This document shows positions 2,748-17,608 of a stretch of 19,358 bases of DNA, in pieces. Made by a program: the position numbers and the translations under genes. Position 1 is the stretch's first letter. Each line of letters begins with the position of its first letter. The stretch is from Deltaproteobacteria bacterium. GTDB taxonomy: Bacteria > Myxococcota_A > JAADFL01. The notes under the pieces were generated by a model. It did not search any database. It was not told the origin of the DNA and worked only from the letters and a program-made list of their open reading frames with translations. The DNA lies in assembly GCA_013152945.1 (NCBI GenBank), contig JAADFL010000133.1, forward strand, positions 1 through 19,358, in the 5' to 3' direction.

Positions 2748-3698
2748 ATGGCAAAAGGCAGGAGACCGCCGCCCGCGCCGCGTGATTCGGGAAGCGAGCA
2801 GCCCACTGGTCTGATATTACGGTTTATTTCAGGAAAATACGAAGGAGGAGAGTTCCCCCTCATGAAGGACAGGGAATTACTCATCGGCAGGAGCCAGGAC
2901 ATGGACATCTGCCTTGTCGAAGACATGGTGAGTCGTAAGCATGCAAAGATAAATACAGCAGGCGGACAGGTGGTAATCCAGGATTTGGGCAGCACGAATG
3001 GAACGTTCGTAAACGGTGAGAAAGTTCGAAAGCAAAGGCTTAAAGAAAGTGACCGCATTCTTGTAGGCACGTCCATTCTAAAGCTCGTCAGCGCGGCCAA
3101 TGCCACAGGGGACGGCGAAACATTGGAAGAAGTGGCGGCCAGGGGCCCGCGGTCGGAAGGCATCAGTGGAAATATCGAGGATGTGCCTCTTCCGGACGTG
3201 CTCCAACTTCTTTCCACAAGCAGGAAAAGCGGCACCCTGGTTGTGAACGGCGCAAGAAGAGGAAAGATACATCTCAAGAACGGGCAGATATTCTATGCGA
3301 ATCTGGACAACAAGATGGACATGAACCCTGTCAAGGTATTATTTCGAATACTGGCATGGCCGAGAGGTTCTTACAAGTTGGAAGCCCCTGTGAAAGGGCC
3401 GTTCCCCTCGGAAATAAAAGATTCCACTGAATCTTTGCTCACAGAAGGCCTAAGGCAAATAGCAGAGTTGAAACGGCTCAAAGGACAAATTCCATCGCTG
3501 AAAACGAAACTCGCGCTGGCCAGGCCGATGAAACCGGCCCTCAAAGATCTATCGCCCGATCAACTGGAGATTCTGCAACTGATACATAATGCGGTAAAAC
3601 TCGACCTAGTTCTCAACAGGAGTCCCCTCACCGACATGGAGACATTGAAATCCGTGGTCTTTCTCACGGACAAGGGTTACCTTCGACAAGTGCGCTAG
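2748..3698 (+). CDS. FHA-domain protein with C-terminal DUF4388 domain
   Basis: A 316-residue cytoplasmic signalling protein. An FHA domain (about residues 22-115) has the phosphothreonine-binding set intact: Gly47-Arg48 (LIGRSQ), Ser62-Arg63-Lys64-His65 (VSRKHAKI) and Asn84-Gly85 (GSTNGTFVNG). It should therefore bind phosphothreonine peptides made by Ser/Thr kinases. A DUF4388 domain follows from about residue 139 ('ISGNIEDVPLPDVLQLLSTSRKSGTLVV ... GKIHLKNGQIFYANL'), a module common in signalling proteins of Myxococcota and related groups. The C-terminal ~80 residues are helical and Leu-rich. The start ATG is preceded by AAGGAG at 2734-2739. Upstream, TTGAAA at 2641-2646 and TTTATT at 2665-2670 form a weak promoter candidate. 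No kinase gene lies in the window to identify the phosphorylated partner. The stop TAG is in frame with the next gene. Confidence 0.88.
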   Translation: MAKGRRPPPAPRDSGSEQPTGLILRFISGKYEGGEFPLMKDRELLIGRSQDMDICLVEDMVSRKHAKINTAGGQVVIQDLGSTNGTFVNGEKVRKQRLKESDRILVGTSILKLVSAANATGDGETLEEVAARGPRSEGISGNIEDVPLPDVLQLLSTSRKSGTLVVNGARRGKIHLKNGQIFYANLDNKMDMNPVKVLFRILAWPRGSYKLEAPVKGPFPSEIKDSTESLLTEGLRQIAELKRLKGQIPSLKTKLALARPMKPALKDLSPDQLEILQLIHNAVKLDLVLNRSPLTDMETLKSVVFLTDKGYLRQVR

Positions 3699-3713: not shown

Positions 3714-4955
3714 GTGCCAGGTTTGTTCGCGTATGTCATTGATACGAATCGCAAAATATATCCTTTCGGCGAACCTGTATCCTCCTTGACAGTAGGCAAT
3801 GAAAGCATTGGCGCGGCCCAGGAGAGAGTTTTCGGTTCTCTTGGATTCCAGGTAAAAAAAATTCAAAATCCGGACCAGATAACCCAAGAAGGATGCCTTC
3901 TGACCTATGATAATGTATTTCTTACAAGACGGGTGGTCCGGGACTTCCTGAAAGCGGTCCGGACCACAGGAGGCTCTGCTCGATGTGCGCTTCCGAAATC
4001 CTTGTTCACCGAACTAACCACACCGGGCACCGGCCTTTCTTACGAGGATCACCCAATCGGAAAGGTCGTGCCGTACAACCTTTTCTATCTCAGTGAAAAA
4101 GCATCCTGGAACAAGGACAAGCTCGATGCACTACCAAGGGTCGTGCCCAGATTCCGTGAAAAGGTCGTTTCGAGCCCGGTGCCTTCCAGGCTGGTAAGTG
4201 AAAAATACCAGTACAGTGTTACTTCAAGCGTGATCTTTCACATAGACAACTGGTTCCATCTGTACCGCGCCAACATGCAGGCCTTGACCATTCGCTGGGT
4301 CGAACAAATACTCGGGCACAAGGTGTGGACCATATTCAAGCTGTTGCTCTCCCTGCCCGGCCTTCCCTTTCACGGATTTTGGAGCCTTGCAAAAAGATTC
4401 AACACGCGAAAAAAAGGTTGTAAGATCCATCCCACCGCACTGGTCGAGCTTTCACACCTGGGTAAAGGTGTGCACATAGGAGCCAGGGCCATTGTCAGGG
4501 GATGCATCATTGGTGACGGGACCTATATCTCGGACGGATCTCACCTGCAATACACCGTAATGGGTAAACGCTGCTTCACCAGCAAGTCCACCATACTGAA
4601 CGGAGTGGTCTCGTTTTCCGATTCCGATGTATGCCCGGCCATGCAGGTCTCCATTGTTGGAAGAAATTGCTCCCTGACCGCAAGGTCATGGATTTTGGAC
4701 ATCAATCTCAAGGGCACAGTCAAGATATTCGACGGCGTCAAGGTCGTGGACACGGGCACATCCTACCTCGGTGCGTGCATCGGCAATGGTGTCAAGGTGG
4801 GGTTTGACGTGGTCATCGGACACGGCAGGGCCGTGCCCAATGACCTGACCCTGGTCAGGGACGACTCGGATGTCCTGCGAAAGGCACCAAGCAATCTGCC
4901 CAAAGGTGTTCCCCTGCTCATCAGGAACGGCATACCCGTGCAAAAGGATGATTGA
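3714..4955 (+). CDS. Left-handed beta-helix (hexapeptide-repeat) transferase-like protein
   Basis: A protein of about 413 residues. The C-terminal part (about 238-395) shows hexapeptide-type repeats of a left-handed beta-helix: 'IHPTALVELSHLGKGVHIGARAIVRGCIIGDGTYISDGSHL' and later 'YLGACIGNGVKVGFDVVIGHG'. The N-terminal part ('AYVIDTNRKIYPFGEPVSSLTVGNESI ... LLTYDNVFLTRRVVRDFL') resembles the layout of NDP-sugar pyrophosphorylases such as GlmU, but I see no GG-x-G-T-R nucleotide-binding loop, so that domain is probably non-catalytic as a uridylyltransferase. A role with sugar nucleotides or acyl transfer in the envelope is inference. The start is uncertain: GTG at 3714 lacks a convincing ribosome site (AGGA at 3697-3700 is 13 bases away), and TTG at 3723 is the alternative. 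It follows the FHA gene by 15 bases in the same frame. Confidence 0.7.
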   Translation: MPGLFAYVIDTNRKIYPFGEPVSSLTVGNESIGAAQERVFGSLGFQVKKIQNPDQITQEGCLLTYDNVFLTRRVVRDFLKAVRTTGGSARCALPKSLFTELTTPGTGLSYEDHPIGKVVPYNLFYLSEKASWNKDKLDALPRVVPRFREKVVSSPVPSRLVSEKYQYSVTSSVIFHIDNWFHLYRANMQALTIRWVEQILGHKVWTIFKLLLSLPGLPFHGFWSLAKRFNTRKKGCKIHPTALVELSHLGKGVHIGARAIVRGCIIGDGTYISDGSHLQYTVMGKRCFTSKSTILNGVVSFSDSDVCPAMQVSIVGRNCSLTARSWILDINLKGTVKIFDGVKVVDTGTSYLGACIGNGVKVGFDVVIGHGRAVPNDLTLVRDDSDVLRKAPSNLPKGVPLLIRNGIPVQKDD

Positions 4956-7322: not shown

Positions 7323-7931
7323 ATGACCTGCTTTGCCCTATTGACTACTTGCCTGGCGCTGCAATTAGCACAGGCACAACAAGCTGCCCCTCCTCCACCA
7401 TCACGATTCTATGTCCAGTCTGCGTACAGCGTAGGTGAAGACAATGCAGCATTCGTGGCCGACGCCGGATGGCCGAGAATCAATTTAGCCTACGTGATGG
7501 GCTTTACCGACTATTTCGATGTCACTTTCAAAGCCGATCACAGGTACGGCAAGTCGTTCAGGGTCGGTATGAGGGCCATGCTTCAGCTCGTGGATTTGAA
7601 CAGGGTTTTCGATCTTGGCGTTTTTTTCGAGCCGTTGTTCTATGCCATGTTCAGGGGAGGGCCCAGTTCGGCAGGCGCGGATCTCAACGCCGGAGTGACC
7701 ATGGGCGTCAGGTTGTCTCCCCGTGTGAATCTCTATGGTGAAGCCTTGCATTCCAGCAGGTTGGCTTCCAAGCGGGAATACTTCTCTAACGGGCCTTTGG
7801 CGAGAATCGGTCTGGAAGTTTGTATTTTAAGGGGATTCAACATTTTTGCATATGGGACGGGACAGTGGTTTTGGGAGGACCTTGCCCCGGAGTACGGGGG
7901 TGGGCTCGGATTGGCGTTCTGGCTGCAATGA
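7323..7931 (+). CDS. Exported beta-barrel-like outer membrane protein
   Basis: A 202-residue protein that I cannot assign to a named family. A signal peptide (MTCFALLTTCLALQLAQAQ) has a likely cleavage after AQA. The mature chain shows short alternating hydrophobic/polar stretches with frequent aromatic residues and turns: 'YVQSAYSVGEDNAAF', 'RINLAYVMGFTDYFDVTFKADHRY', 'FRVGMRAMLQLV', 'GVTMGVRLSPRVNLYGEALHS', 'FNIFAYGTGQWFW'. It ends in Gly/Leu-rich 'GGGLGLAFWLQ'. This is the character of an eight-strand-type outer membrane barrel, and the length fits. ATG 7323 follows GGAAGGAA. Its TGA (7929-7931) overlaps the ATG of the next gene, so the two are translationally coupled. A partner role for the DUF1460 enzyme in the envelope is inference. 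Confidence 0.7.
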   Translation: MTCFALLTTCLALQLAQAQQAAPPPPSRFYVQSAYSVGEDNAAFVADAGWPRINLAYVMGFTDYFDVTFKADHRYGKSFRVGMRAMLQLVDLNRVFDLGVFFEPLFYAMFRGGPSSAGADLNAGVTMGVRLSPRVNLYGEALHSSRLASKREYFSNGPLARIGLEVCILRGFNIFAYGTGQWFWEDLAPEYGGGLGLAFWLQ

Positions 7932-9757
7932 TGTTTCCATTTTCGAGGCGAATCTTTGTCCCGGTTGTTCTACTGGTTATCTTTTGTACCGGCGTTTCAC
8001 ATGCCCGAAAGCCATCCCTGGCCCGATTGCAGGACCTGGTCAACAAGGTTACAACAGGCCCTTTGGGCCAAAGGAACAGGGCCGGATTCAGGTTGAAGTT
8101 GATCGGTGACCCAAGGAGCGTCGATCTCTTGATACCTTTTTTGCATTCGAAAGAAGCGAATGTAAGAGCTTCCGCATGCTGGGTTCTTGGACTGCTTGGG
8201 GACCAACGTGCAAGAACCTCGCTGCTCATGGCTTTAAAAGACACGAATGCAAGAGTCCGTGCAACTGCCGTCATCGCCCTTGGCAGGCTTGTAGATGGAC
8301 TTGGGAAACGAGGCAAAACAGGCAATGAAATCAAAATACTTCTGCCCTTGCTGGATGATCCGAGCCGGCCCGTGAGGTTGGCCGCAATCAGGGCCTTTTT
8401 GGAAATTGGATCCAGACCCGCCGCCGCCAAGTTGCTTCGAATCCTGGGCCGGGCGGATGCTGATGGAGATGTGGATCTTCTGAAAAACACGGCCCTGGCA
8501 TTAGGCTCATCAGGCAGCGGATATGCAGTAGCCCCGCTTACCAAGCTCTTGGCACACCCTGACCAACACGTCAGGCTGGCCGCGGCCCTGGCCCTCACAA
8601 GGTTGGGATCCAGAGTGGGCGGTGTAGAACTACTCTCGTGGCTTAAGGATAAAAAGAATCCCAAGCACCGCCTGGAGGCGATCAAGGGCTTGAAACACGT
8701 TCCGGGCGGATGGGCCATAAGAAGGTTGATTCGTGCCCTCGAAGATGAAGACATCAGGATTCAGTTGGCTGCGGCCAGGGAATTGGCTGAAAGAAAAATC
8801 GATGCCGGCGTGGATACACTTCTTCGCTTGCTGGACAACGAGCATCCATGGGTCAGGCAAGCCGCGGACGAGGCATTGCTGGATGCAGGGATCAGGGACG
8901 ATGAGCGGGAAAAGAGATTGTCACGTTTGAGGGGTGAAACACCGGGCAGGCCCAAGCCCTTCTACGTGCAATCCGAGGCGCAAATAGATGCCTTCCTGAG
9001 AAAATTATATGTTGAAAGGCCGAGTCTGGCGGACAGGCTCGACAGGATAAGCGAGCGTTTTCTCTATACACCCTACAGGAGAGATCCGCTGGGCGAGGGC
9101 CCAAAAGGAAAAAAAGACAAGGACCCGCTTTTCCGCTTCGATGCAGTTGATTGCCTGACATTTGTTGAAGAAACCCTGGCCCTGGCCTTGAGCCGGGATC
9201 TATACACTGCGCGGCAGCGCCTTCAATCAATCAGGTACCAAAACGGCATAGTCTCGTATAAGACACGCAACCACTTTCCCATGTCTCAATGGATCCCGAA
9301 TAATACCAAGCTGGGCCTGTTGAAGGACTTTACCATGAAAGTGGGCCGCAACCTGGCCTTCCGTGTCACCAAAGTGCTGGGACGCTCGGTATGGAAGGCT
9401 CCGGCAGGCTGGAGGTGGGCCAAGAGCCTGGGGCCGGACGCCCTTCCAAGGGGAAAGTTCTCTCTCTCCGCCATTAGGCCCAATGACCTCATAAAGCTGG
9501 AATCCAGAGTGCCCACCGGAACATTGCTCTTCATCATACGAAAGGACCGGCCGGAGTTGCCCTATCTCATTAGTCACGTGGCCCTGATAATATCGAACAG
9601 GGGAAGGCTCTTCGTAAGGCACGCAGCAGAGCAGATCTACCACAGAGTCGTGGATTCTCCACTCTCCGATTACTTGAGGCGAATCGAAAAGTACCAGAAG
9701 CGGCCGGTAATGGGTATCAACCTCCAGAAGGTGATCGATCCTTTCTACCGGCGTTGA
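7928..9757 (+). CDS. Exported HEAT-repeat protein fused to a DUF1460 (putative N-acetylmuramoyl-L-alanine amidase-like) domain
   Basis: A protein of about 609 residues. The start at ATG 7928 (or 7931) gives a clean signal peptide (FSRRIFVPVVLLVIF, cleaved near SHA-RKP); the longer frame from 7820 lies inside the upstream gene. Residues ~50-330 are PBS-lyase-type HEAT repeats (for example 'VRASACWVLGLLGDQRARTSLLMALKDTNARVRATAVIALGRL', repeated about seven times). Residues ~345-600 match the DUF1460 pattern, a papain-like/NlpC-related cysteine hydrolase fold with suggested amidase activity: catalytic Cys409 in VDCLTFVEE, the IRYQNG and RNHFPMSQW blocks, and His550 in ISHVALII followed by LFVRHA. 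Activity on peptidoglycan is inferred from the family. The HEAT domain may dock a partner. The 3' end overlaps the convergent thioredoxin-like gene by 41 bases. Confidence 0.82.
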   Translation: MMFPFSRRIFVPVVLLVIFCTGVSHARKPSLARLQDLVNKVTTGPLGQRNRAGFRLKLIGDPRSVDLLIPFLHSKEANVRASACWVLGLLGDQRARTSLLMALKDTNARVRATAVIALGRLVDGLGKRGKTGNEIKILLPLLDDPSRPVRLAAIRAFLEIGSRPAAAKLLRILGRADADGDVDLLKNTALALGSSGSGYAVAPLTKLLAHPDQHVRLAAALALTRLGSRVGGVELLSWLKDKKNPKHRLEAIKGLKHVPGGWAIRRLIRALEDEDIRIQLAAARELAERKIDAGVDTLLRLLDNEHPWVRQAADEALLDAGIRDDEREKRLSRLRGETPGRPKPFYVQSEAQIDAFLRKLYVERPSLADRLDRISERFLYTPYRRDPLGEGPKGKKDKDPLFRFDAVDCLTFVEETLALALSRDLYTARQRLQSIRYQNGIVSYKTRNHFPMSQWIPNNTKLGLLKDFTMKVGRNLAFRVTKVLGRSVWKAPAGWRWAKSLGPDALPRGKFSLSAIRPNDLIKLESRVPTGTLLFIIRKDRPELPYLISHVALIISNRGRLFVRHAAEQIYHRVVDSPLSDYLRRIEKYQKRPVMGINLQKVIDPFYRR

Positions 9758-13949: not shown

Positions 13950-15974
13950 ATGGCTGATTTAAGAAAGACAAGGGATCCGAAAAATTTCCGCCTGGCCATA
14001 GCCGGGTCTGCCAATGATATGTCCCTAGACCTGGATATTGAGCGAATTTTAAGGAACCAAGGTTACCAAGTTGAAAGCGCGGCAACAAGGGAAGAAGCAA
14101 TACCCCTTGTAAGAGCCTTCAGGCCCCACCTGTTGATAGTTAAAATTCTTGACAGAGAGGCGGAAAATTGCCTCGAGACACTCAAGAAAGCCGGTGACTT
14201 GGAAGCAATTCCCGTCCTGTTGATTTTCGGTGCTGACTATACGCCTTCCGGAGACGTGTCTTCAATCGTTCAAGCAACTCTCCGTGCCCCGTTATCAGAG
14301 GCTGCTTTCCTGGCAAAAATCAAAACGGAACTCGAGCTGAAGTTCTTTGAAGACGAGCTAGACAAGCAAAGAAAAGCCCAGTCCATACTGGATGAGATAC
14401 TTTCGTTCCTGGCATCCGGACCCCAGCCGGAAAACGTATTGCTTACCATCGCCCATAAGACCGCTCTCGTATCCGATGCAGACCGATGTTCAGTCATGTT
14501 TCCGAAAACCGGCTCACCGGACCTGTTCTGGATGGCATCCAATGATGACTCGGAAGTTCACACTATCGAGGCATCGCCCCACATGTTTCCGGAACTGGAA
14601 ATGGCAAACATGCTGGAAGAGGAACTGGACATTCCGGATGTAAAGAATGATCCCAGGTTCCTGGAGGTGCGTTCCAGGCTCGAGGCGGACGGCATCGAGA
14701 GCCTGGTGATGTACCCGATGAAACAAGCCGTTTACGGAAAGGCAGGCTTCATCTCCTTGTCATTCGCCACCAGGACGATAGACCTGGATCCGAATATCCG
14801 CAAGCTGTGCCATATGATAAAAAATGCCGCCGTCCTCGCTCTTACCGGCATCAACGATGTAACGTCCCAAGCTCAAGATTACTCAACCGGCAAGGCTAAG
14901 ACGGTTTCCACAGAGCACAGGTTGAAAAAACTGGAAAGATTCGAGGCGTACTTCGAGAACGCGGCTGAGGCAATGCTTATTCTGGACGATAATGGCCGGG
15001 CCTTGTCGGTGAACCTCGAGGGAGAAAAAGTCCTGGGAAGGTCCAGGCGGGAGATCCTGGGAGAATGGTTCCCAAATTTTTTCCACGAAAAGAGCAAAGC
15101 CCTTGCCGAAGACATGCTGGTAGGTTTCAGCCAAGAGGAATTCCCAAGATTTTTGGATATGTTGGTGACACGGGATGGAGAAACACGGCTGTTGTCTGTC
15201 AGCTCCGGGGCGTTGCACACATCACATGGTAGAGCCGTCATTTCTCTGCGTGACGTAACCGACCTGAGGGAAACGGAAGATGAACTAAAAAAGACAAAGG
15301 AGTTTCTCGAAAACCTCATCGACGGCAGTGTTCAGGGCATAATGGCCTGGGACATGTCCGGGGATATATTGTTGTTCAACAAGGGAGCCGAAAAGATAAC
15401 CAACCGGGAAGCAGAGGACATAGTAGGTAATTACAACATAACAGACCTTTTCCCGGAGAACGCCATAAAGGAAGTCCTGAAACAACTACACAGCACCCGA
15501 TACGGCGGCACAGGCAAGCTCGACAACGTAAGAAAAGATATCCTCGATCGAAACGGCCAAAGGATCCCGGTGAATCTCACCGCATCCATTGTGTACGAAG
15601 ACGGGGAGGAAGCAGCCGTTGTCGCAATCTTCTCAGACTTGCGTGAAAGGCTGAACATGGAGAAAAAACTCTCGCAGGCCAGGGAGCGGTTGGTACTAAG
15701 TGAAAAGCAGGCCATGCTTGCGGAACTGGCGGGAACGACTGCTCACGAACTAAATCAACCGCTTACATCCGTCATGGGTTATGCCGAGCTGTTGTTGCGC
15801 AAGATACCGGAAGACAGCCACAACCGCCACACAGTCGAAATAATATTGAAAGAAGCCGAAAGGATGGCCCAGATAGTCAAGAAAATAGGCAAGATAACAA
15901 AATACAAGACTACTACTTACGTGGGTTCCACAAAGATCGTGGACCTGGACAAGTCGACAGGAGATGATGAATGA
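13950..15974 (+). CDS. Histidine kinase-like sensor (pseudo-receiver, GAF, two PAS, HisKA) lacking the ATPase domain
   Basis: A 674-residue soluble sensor. Residues ~13-130 have a receiver-like fold ('FRLAIAGSANDMSLDLDIERILRNQGYQVESAATREEAI ... PHLLIVKILD'), but Lys65 stands where the phosphorylated Asp should be, and the acidic pocket and conserved Lys are absent. A GAF domain (~143-300), PAS 1 (~325-435) and PAS 2 (~445-565) follow. The HisKA helix pair contains His599 in TTAHELNQPLTSVMGYAEL, the DctB/FixL-like form. The protein ends 75 residues later in an ordinary tail (STGDDE) with no N, G1, F or G2 box, so it cannot bind ATP itself. Its TGA overlaps the ATG of the next kinase (ATGA), giving coupled translation. 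It probably depends on that kinase for phosphorylation (inference). No membrane segment is visible. Confidence 0.85.
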   Translation: MADLRKTRDPKNFRLAIAGSANDMSLDLDIERILRNQGYQVESAATREEAIPLVRAFRPHLLIVKILDREAENCLETLKKAGDLEAIPVLLIFGADYTPSGDVSSIVQATLRAPLSEAAFLAKIKTELELKFFEDELDKQRKAQSILDEILSFLASGPQPENVLLTIAHKTALVSDADRCSVMFPKTGSPDLFWMASNDDSEVHTIEASPHMFPELEMANMLEEELDIPDVKNDPRFLEVRSRLEADGIESLVMYPMKQAVYGKAGFISLSFATRTIDLDPNIRKLCHMIKNAAVLALTGINDVTSQAQDYSTGKAKTVSTEHRLKKLERFEAYFENAAEAMLILDDNGRALSVNLEGEKVLGRSRREILGEWFPNFFHEKSKALAEDMLVGFSQEEFPRFLDMLVTRDGETRLLSVSSGALHTSHGRAVISLRDVTDLRETEDELKKTKEFLENLIDGSVQGIMAWDMSGDILLFNKGAEKITNREAEDIVGNYNITDLFPENAIKEVLKQLHSTRYGGTGKLDNVRKDILDRNGQRIPVNLTASIVYEDGEEAAVVAIFSDLRERLNMEKKLSQARERLVLSEKQAMLAELAGTTAHELNQPLTSVMGYAELLLRKIPEDSHNRHTVEIILKEAERMAQIVKKIGKITKYKTTTYVGSTKIVDLDKSTGDDE

Positions 15975-17608
15975 CCAGGGCCGATTCCGGGCACAGCCCT
16001 GCGGAAAAGGCTGAACTCGCCCGACTGAAGAATGAACTCAAAGAAGGAAAGAGACTGCAAAAGGCCCTGTTCGAACTGACACGTGAAATAAGCCTGGCCA
16101 AAAGCGAAGATCAGGTCATCAAGGTCTTTGCCGAGACAATCAAGGAACTCTTTCCCAGGGCTTTTTTCTGCATAAAGGTAGTCGACCCGGAAACAATCGA
16201 ACTTGTCAACCTGTACGCCGAAGGACACTTAAAGGCGGAATCAAGGGATACGATCGAGGTCAAACGTTCAGCGGTCGAACGCTTCGGCTTGCAGGATGCT
16301 CTGTCAAGAAACCCGGCTGCAAGAATAAGGAACCGTTACAGGTTGGTCTTTGACAATAGTTCTTCCGGAACAGCGGTGCCCTTGGTGGCAAACGGTAAAT
16401 TTCTGGGGTTGCTGGCCCTGGAATACAAGCCCGGCGAGGAAAACCTCAACAGAGACAGGCCAGTATTGAGGCAGGTGGCGAATCAGCTCGCCCTTTCACT
16501 TCATCATGCCCACTCCGTCGAGGAGACACTGTTTCTCAAGAATTACCTGGAGCAATTAATCGAAAGTGCAAATGCCCTGATTATCGTTACAGACCCGTAC
16601 AGAAAAGTCAGGGTATGCAACAAGGCTGTTGAACGCCTTTTGGACATGGACAGAAAGGAGATCCTGGACAAGGACTTCCTTGATCTGTTACCCGAAGATG
16701 AACGTTCCAGGTTGCTTCGGGTTTTCGTATCCGCCTTGCATGGAAAATCCACAACCAATCTTGAAACAAGGCTCGTGGCGAAAAAAAAGGAGCTTAAAAG
16801 AGTAAACTTCAATACATCGCCATTGCTTAATGCAGACGGGCAGGTGGAAGGATTGATTGCCGTAGGCCAGGATTTGAGCCAGATACGCAATCTCGAGCAA
16901 CAGATGCTTCATGTGGCCAGGCTTGCCGGACTCGGGGAAACTGCTGCACAAATGATTCACGACATGAACACACCGCTTACATCCATTACGGTGTACTCTA
17001 CCCATTTACTTAAAAAGCTTGAAAAGGGTCCCATTGACAAACAAGAAAAGGAACGGGTGCTGCGCATAAGGGAGTCGGCCGAACGCATCCTCGATATGAC
17101 TCGAAACGTCATGAGCTTCGCCCGCACGGACAAGGACATTCATGAAGCAGTCGACCTGAACAAATTGATATCGAAATCGATTACTCTTTGCGATCCCATA
17201 ATCGAAAAGGGAAATGTAAGGATTCACAGCCAATTGGCCCAAGACCTTCCGCTCGTAAAGGCAATTTCAGGAGAAATCACCCAGGCCTTTCTCAACTTGT
17301 TGATGAACGCCTGTCAGGCGGTATCAGGCAAGCCCAACCCCCTGATTGTGATCACTTCAAACCGCCTGGATGAAGGCTTTGTGGAAATACTCATCTCTGA
17401 CAACGGATGTGGAATACCCGAAGAGGAACAAGTGAAAATCTTCGACCCGTTTTACACGAGCAAGCCAGATGGAGAGGGCACGGGTCTCGGACTATCCATT
17501 GTAAAGACCGTAATGGCCCACCACTACGGCAGCATCTCGGTGGACAGCGAGGAAGGACAGGGAACCACGTTCATATTGCGTTTTCCTTTTTCCAAGAAGG
17601 ATAATTGA
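15971..17608 (+). CDS. Complete soluble histidine kinase (GAF, PAS, HisKA, HATPase_c)
   Basis: A 545-residue sensor kinase. An N-terminal coiled segment (~10-40) leads to a GAF domain (~45-185: 'VFAETIKELFPRAFFCIKVVDPET ... GTAVPLVANGKFLGLLALEY'). A PAS domain (~195-310: 'LIESANALIIVTDPYRKVRVCNKAVERLLDM') and HisKA with His330 in AQMIHDMNTPLTSITVYS come next. The ATPase domain carries all boxes: N (Asn446 in NLLMNACQAV), G1 (DNGCGIP), F (FDPFYTSK) and G2 (GEGTGLGLSIV). No membrane segment or receiver is present and no response regulator gene is adjacent, so the phosphate acceptor is elsewhere. The ATG shares bases with the previous stop, implying fixed stoichiometry with the ATPase-less partner. 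The overall type is the NtrB/cytosolic PAS kinase group. Confidence 0.93.
   Translation: MTRADSGHSPAEKAELARLKNELKEGKRLQKALFELTREISLAKSEDQVIKVFAETIKELFPRAFFCIKVVDPETIELVNLYAEGHLKAESRDTIEVKRSAVERFGLQDALSRNPAARIRNRYRLVFDNSSSGTAVPLVANGKFLGLLALEYKPGEENLNRDRPVLRQVANQLALSLHHAHSVEETLFLKNYLEQLIESANALIIVTDPYRKVRVCNKAVERLLDMDRKEILDKDFLDLLPEDERSRLLRVFVSALHGKSTTNLETRLVAKKKELKRVNFNTSPLLNADGQVEGLIAVGQDLSQIRNLEQQMLHVARLAGLGETAAQMIHDMNTPLTSITVYSTHLLKKLEKGPIDKQEKERVLRIRESAERILDMTRNVMSFARTDKDIHEAVDLNKLISKSITLCDPIIEKGNVRIHSQLAQDLPLVKAISGEITQAFLNLLMNACQAVSGKPNPLIVITSNRLDEGFVEILISDNGCGIPEEEQVKIFDPFYTSKPDGEGTGLGLSIVKTVMAHHYGSISVDSEEGQGTTFILRFPFSKKDN

Follow-up and report, generated by a model that had tools for sequence, protein, structure and literature searches.

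Proteins A and B, encoded by adjacent genes in the 19,358-nt stretch of DNA analysed here (the window), constitute an old, widely conserved and sometimes fused pair within one phylum. A combines several sensor domains with a HisKA domain and lacks an HATPase domain, while B is a complete histidine kinase. The window is one contig of a 4.8-Mb draft genome, in which the pair has the following features:

13950–15974, forward strand: protein A, 674 aa, comprising a pseudo-receiver, GAF, PAS, PAS, HisKA and a conserved tail, without HATPase
14049–14340 (limits approximate), forward strand: degenerate receiver (REC) of A, with Lys at the phospho-Asp position, identified by a REC profile match
14427–14726, forward strand: GAF-like domain of A (Pfam GAF, residues 160–259, sub-threshold)
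14934–15638, forward strand: two PAS domains of A, approximately residues 329–440 and 451–563 (Pfam)
15717–15887, forward strand: HisKA (DHp) domain of A, residues 590–646 (Pfam), motif HELNQPL
15900–15956, forward strand: conserved tail of A, KYKTTTYVGSTKIVDLDKS, directly after HisKA and at the usual HATPase start
15960–15974, forward strand: GGAG and ATGA stop/start overlap linking A and B (putative translational coupling)
15971–17608, forward strand: protein B, 545 aa, comprising GAF, PAS, HisKA and a complete HATPase

Pfam analysis bore out the initial annotation of A as a protein with a GAF domain (sub-threshold), two PAS domains and a HisKA domain with phospho-acceptor His599 (15744–15746), ending 75 residues further on. 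No HATPase was detected in A by Pfam; hence, with no HATPase_c on the same chain, A is not a canonical HisKA histidine kinase. The HisKA (PF00512) scores of A (51.1 bits) and B (35.7 bits) both exceed the cut-off of 26.9, and the H box is present. Two parts of A had been overlooked in that annotation: the degenerate N-terminal receiver (residues ~34–130), which was missed by Pfam and scores 41.9 bits against a profile of the relatives' intact receivers, and the strongly conserved tail occupying the 20 residues after HisKA (consensus RYETKxYVGxxKIxDL). Among the best NCBIfam matches shown, only a general PAS model reaches its cut-off for either A or B. Single-sequence AlphaFold2 modelling of A HisKA plus tail predicted two long helices, with most of the hairpin at pLDDT ≥70; the tail was modelled as a possible beta-hairpin at pLDDT <50, a weak prediction that we do not use as evidence.

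B had been described as a complete kinase beginning at the ATGA overlap, and the coordinates, reading frames and Pfam matches all agree with this: a GAF domain at or just below threshold is followed by PAS, HisKA and HATPase_c (436–541), with the acceptor His330 in the motif HDMNT, an N box at 442 and G boxes at 477 and 503. The A stop codon (15972–15974) overlaps the B ATG (15971–15973), preceded by a Shine–Dalgarno-like GGAG at 15960–15963 that was read directly in the sequence, and a possible −4 overlap is also found in 36/60 non-fused A–B pairs of relatives. Opposite-strand genes lie on both sides of the pair, indicating that A–B is a two-gene unit. Upstream lie a gene whose product has no annotation and one for a ComEC-like protein, downstream one for an FGE-sulfatase-domain protein; no response regulator gene adjoins A–B in the window. 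Elsewhere in the window, an FHA and DUF4388 protein (2748–3698) is followed by a hexapeptide-repeat protein (3714–4955), and at 7820–9757 a HEAT-repeat domain is joined to an N-acetylmuramoyl-L-alanine amidase-like (AmiA-like) domain, a pairing that looks unusual.

The abrupt end of A is a family trait. A homologue search (E≤1e-20) returned A in 15/37 genomes (its own and those of relatives), with most hits aligning to its last residues, and a HisKA-plus-tail profile located A in ~111/377 genomes of the same phylum (about 30 %), as a single copy in each. We read the loci of 85 relatives, giving 86 A sequences with that of the window, from 70 or more genera; the HisKA–tail region is 46–60 % identical to that of window A, and longer aligned regions of the whole proteins are roughly 28–44 % identical. 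All but three (83/86) stop 1–77 residues past the tail without an HATPase, and the remaining three are fusions to B. It might be supposed that A is a formerly full-length kinase cut short by decay, a frameshift or an error in sequencing, given that the contig comes from a draft genome and that A stops at the usual HATPase start. We rule this out as exceedingly improbable on account of the common ending in relatives from many genera, the conservation of the tail and the lack of any HATPase remnant ahead of B; the earlier rejection of a frameshift is thereby upheld. A plasmid search returned only HisKA matches stopping short of the tail, while a search of another phylum (that of L024) found A in 0/199 genomes at E≤1e-16, a weak negative with no positive control.

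Conservation is highest at the phospho-acceptor site. The acceptor His is present in 86/86 aligned A sequences and is followed by Glu at H+1 in 84/86 (98 %), while Asn-Gln-Pro-Leu occupies H+3 to H+6 throughout (86/86), so that H+4 is always Gln; within the tail, conservation reaches 100 % for Thr80 and Tyr83, 98 % for Asp91 and 97 % for Leu92. Every aligned B retains HisKA and its acceptor His, with Glu or Asp at H+1 and, counting the fusions, Asn (59), Ser (3) or Thr (1) at H+4. In CrdS, a myxobacterial HisKA kinase, kinase activity requires the acidic residue next to the His and phosphatase activity the H+4 Asn/Thr, neither residue being needed for the other activity, and N375Q leaves no measurable phosphatase (PMC3510030). 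By analogy, we infer that A, with its His, Glu and invariant Gln, would be open to phosphorylation by an ATPase domain and could not serve as a phosphatase. The invariant His and near-invariant Glu would also fit phosphorylation of His599 in trans.

The receiver is less constrained. About half of the A proteins have an intact N-terminal receiver; in others, including that of the window, the Asp is lost, and some have no receiver. With the Asp missing in about half of the lineages and the acceptor His never lost, the receiver appears to be an optional input and HisKA the core. Degenerate receivers are found in 27/50 A proteins with B versus 2/15 without B; however, A proteins without any REC occur on both sides, and we therefore dropped the idea that Asp loss is tied to the presence of B.

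B orthologues were called using a profile of the B HisKA–HATPase region, against which true B proteins score 235–369 bits and the highest-scoring non-B protein 226 bits; the gap holds for B proteins outside the profile set (e.g. G148, G186, G285, G114, G149 and G315, 286–356 bits). B was found in 84/377 genomes, 80 of which also have A (Fisher p 1.8e-50 over the 377 genomes, a statistic that ignores relatedness), and in all 60 non-fused pairs that were read, B lies downstream of A on the same strand. The four B genomes without A are G134 (contig edge), the L146 and L147 genomes and G266 (L148), where B comes immediately after the LarB/LarC-like genes, which in other genomes lie ahead of A. Conversely, in 31 genomes with A no protein reaches the B threshold; G182, G205, G254 and G318 among them are accounted for by contig ends or by a B that is divergent or cut, leaving ~27/111 A genomes without B. 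An unlinked B was ruled out in the 19 B-less genomes tested, where the best kinase scores ≤226 bits against ≥286 bits for adjacent B proteins. On the A tree, the B-less state takes several changes, at least eight of them forced by well supported branches. The His, Glu and tail are unchanged in B-less A proteins, suggesting that these residues are not retained for B alone, and A must have other partners or another mode in these genomes. The initial annotation's view of A and B as a coupled pair thus stands for the great majority of B genomes, in which the genes are nearly always adjacent, and fails as an exclusive rule: A homologues share the early ending and do not always precede a complete kinase, and in G266 B is found without A.

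Three fusion events were identified. Loci L083 and L145 (one genus) encode a 1135-aa protein running from REC to HisKA–tail–PAS–HisKA–HATPase, and L096 (another family) encodes a 624-aa protein with the architecture PAS–PAS–HisKA–tail–HisKA–HATPase; both have two HisKA domains and a single HATPase, and together these fusions retaining A HisKA need two origins on the A tree. In L146 and L147 (one genus), an event of a different kind has joined the GAF–PAS–PAS of A to B, and A HisKA is gone. The initial annotation took a full ATPase domain in close relatives of A as an argument against the pair; such a domain occurs only where A is fused to B, which instead supports coupling. Taken together, fusion, operon structure and co-inheritance make it likely that A and B share a complex.

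A second ATPase-less family, reached via L038 (2371–3471), has the architecture PAS–HisKA–tail–REC (read in 25 loci, L153–L177), a length of ~360 aa, the motif HEINNPL and the tail YETxxYIGPAKMIDL. It is present as one copy each in ~83/377 genomes, in families without A, and its H+4 residue is usually Asn. That the tail is common to two ATPase-less architectures suggests that it acts in place of the missing domain. We tentatively propose, as a rather doubtful extension of this, that the tail (YETxxYVGxxKIxDL) may be a docking module replacing the ATPase, through which an ATPase-less HisKA would borrow that of another kinase; it would then define a phylum-wide, acceptor-only DHp class in two mutually exclusive architectures, REC–GAF–PAS–PAS–HisKA–tail with or without B, and PAS–HisKA–tail–REC.

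The reading we favour, to which we give an even chance, is a heteromeric sensor kinase made up of A and B, with A His599 phosphorylated in trans by B. Lacking an ATPase of its own, A has to rely on a donor domain supplied in trans, most obviously that of B. The sole ATPase of such a complex would come from B; A, we infer, would dock on B to give a physical heterodimer, most likely via pairing of the related DHp helices and possibly aided by the conserved tail, and the B ATPase domain would phosphorylate A His599 in addition to B's own His330. A~P would then pass its phosphoryl group to a response regulator presumably encoded elsewhere, no REC gene recurring beside the pair as an output across the loci read. 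Given the Gln at A's phosphatase position (H+4), the A-containing complex may be biased to kinase output, with B alone able to act both ways. Against such a heteromeric kinase stand the ~27 A genomes without B in which the residues are unchanged, the acceptor His of B, which makes B a kinase with no need of A, and L146/L147, in which A HisKA was lost yet the joined protein was kept, an arrangement just as compatible with docking or sensing as the role of A.

Indeed, the joining of A's sensors to B with deletion of A HisKA, together with the completeness of B by itself, would suit A as a regulatory sensor subunit, whose HisKA heterodimerises with B and tunes B autophosphorylation or phosphatase activity, His599 being no functional phosphosite in the pair. 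This resembles the third mechanism of RetS on GacS, and RetS, which has no working ATPase, inhibits GacS autophosphorylation (PMC5992135). We consider such a role possible, if on the unlikely side: were the domain there only to dimerise, His or Glu should have disappeared in places, whereas both are conserved over the 86 A sequences, with or without B and also in the fusions. The B-less A proteins could alternatively be explained if A were a DHp-based phosphotransferase acting as Spo0B and ChpT do, fed by receivers, sometimes by its own REC, with B one of several sources; an intact same-chain REC is found in 13/15 B-less A proteins with a recognisable REC, and the sister PAS–HisKA–tail–REC family also lacks an ATPase. 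Spo0B and ChpT carry a degenerate CA-like C-terminal domain after DHp, whereas no degenerate CA domain follows A HisKA, and the window REC is without its Asp. In addition, A conserves the H+1 Glu, which is needed for ATP-dependent His phosphorylation (PMC3510030), and we judge a phosphotransferase role distinctly improbable.

The general concept is already known from CheA3/CheA4 and RetS–GacS. CheA3–CheA4 of Rhodobacter sphaeroides is a split histidine kinase whose complex is required for phosphorylating the acceptor His (PMC3591291), and, as in A–B, this His is on an ATPase-less chain and the ATPase on the partner. However, CheA3–CheA4 belongs to the CheA family, with an Hpt-type P1 and a CheA4 without an acceptor His (PMC3591291), whereas B has its own HisKA and the acceptor HisKA of A its own PAS/GAF sensors; by the strict definition of a split kinase, A is an acceptor chain without ATPase and B is not a partner without its own acceptor. 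A also lacks the HE/DxxN/T motif set for a bifunctional split kinase (PMC3591291). RetS of the Pseudomonas aeruginosa RetS–GacS system is likewise a HisKA protein without a working ATPase, and it too has receivers, as do relatives of A (PMC5992135). RetS is a separate inhibitory sensor that retains a degenerate HATPase and an HExxT phosphatase motif (PMC5992135), unlike A, which has no HATPase at all, an HExxQ motif and an operon with the partner on which it would act; the combination of a degenerate HATPase with an Asp-bearing receiver is absent from A, the Asp being intact in many relatives. Spo0B and ChpT share with A a DHp-type four-helix acceptor without ATP-dependent autophosphorylation (ChpT: PMC3433190), but are receiver-fed intermediates, whereas A has sensors instead and, with only the short stretch past the tail in non-fused A proteins, no CA-like C-terminal domain. 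A–B therefore fails a defining feature of all three systems.

SMART holds 1556/42417 HisKA proteins (3.66 %) without HATPase (PMC3591291), and so the anatomy of A is not unheard of; A shares this anatomy class, while its tail and conserved partner are undescribed in PMC3591291. The libraries and papers searched, which lie mostly outside the subscription literature, contain no apparent description of the A family, tail, partner, fixed Gln or sister family. HATPase-less HisKA proteins are easily taken for fragments, whereas A is a conserved family whose Gln substitution is expected to abolish phosphatase activity and whose linked partner has been fused more than once. A–B is a naturally occurring, testable example of subunits sharing out the kinase and phosphatase roles, a division that theory ties to switch-like responses (PMC3591291).

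Finally, several neighbours of A recur. LarB/LarC-like nickel-insertion genes lie ahead of A in ~16 loci and ahead of B in L148 (e.g. L026:6741–8186, L148:2811–4924). In two B-less f19 genomes, a CheA-like gene (Hpt–P2–HATPase–CheW; L086:9950–11983, L097:9645–11828) is found upstream of A and its LarB/LarC-like neighbours, all on one strand, with similar weak ATPase matches at a comparable position in L075 and L113; the CheA-like protein of the f19 genomes is a possible alternative phosphodonor for A. A LolA-like (outer-membrane lipoprotein-sorting) gene follows A in some B-less genomes (L086:5106–5879, L026:3820–4626, L033:6395–7198), as called by Pfam for L086 and by N-terminal sequence likeness for the others.
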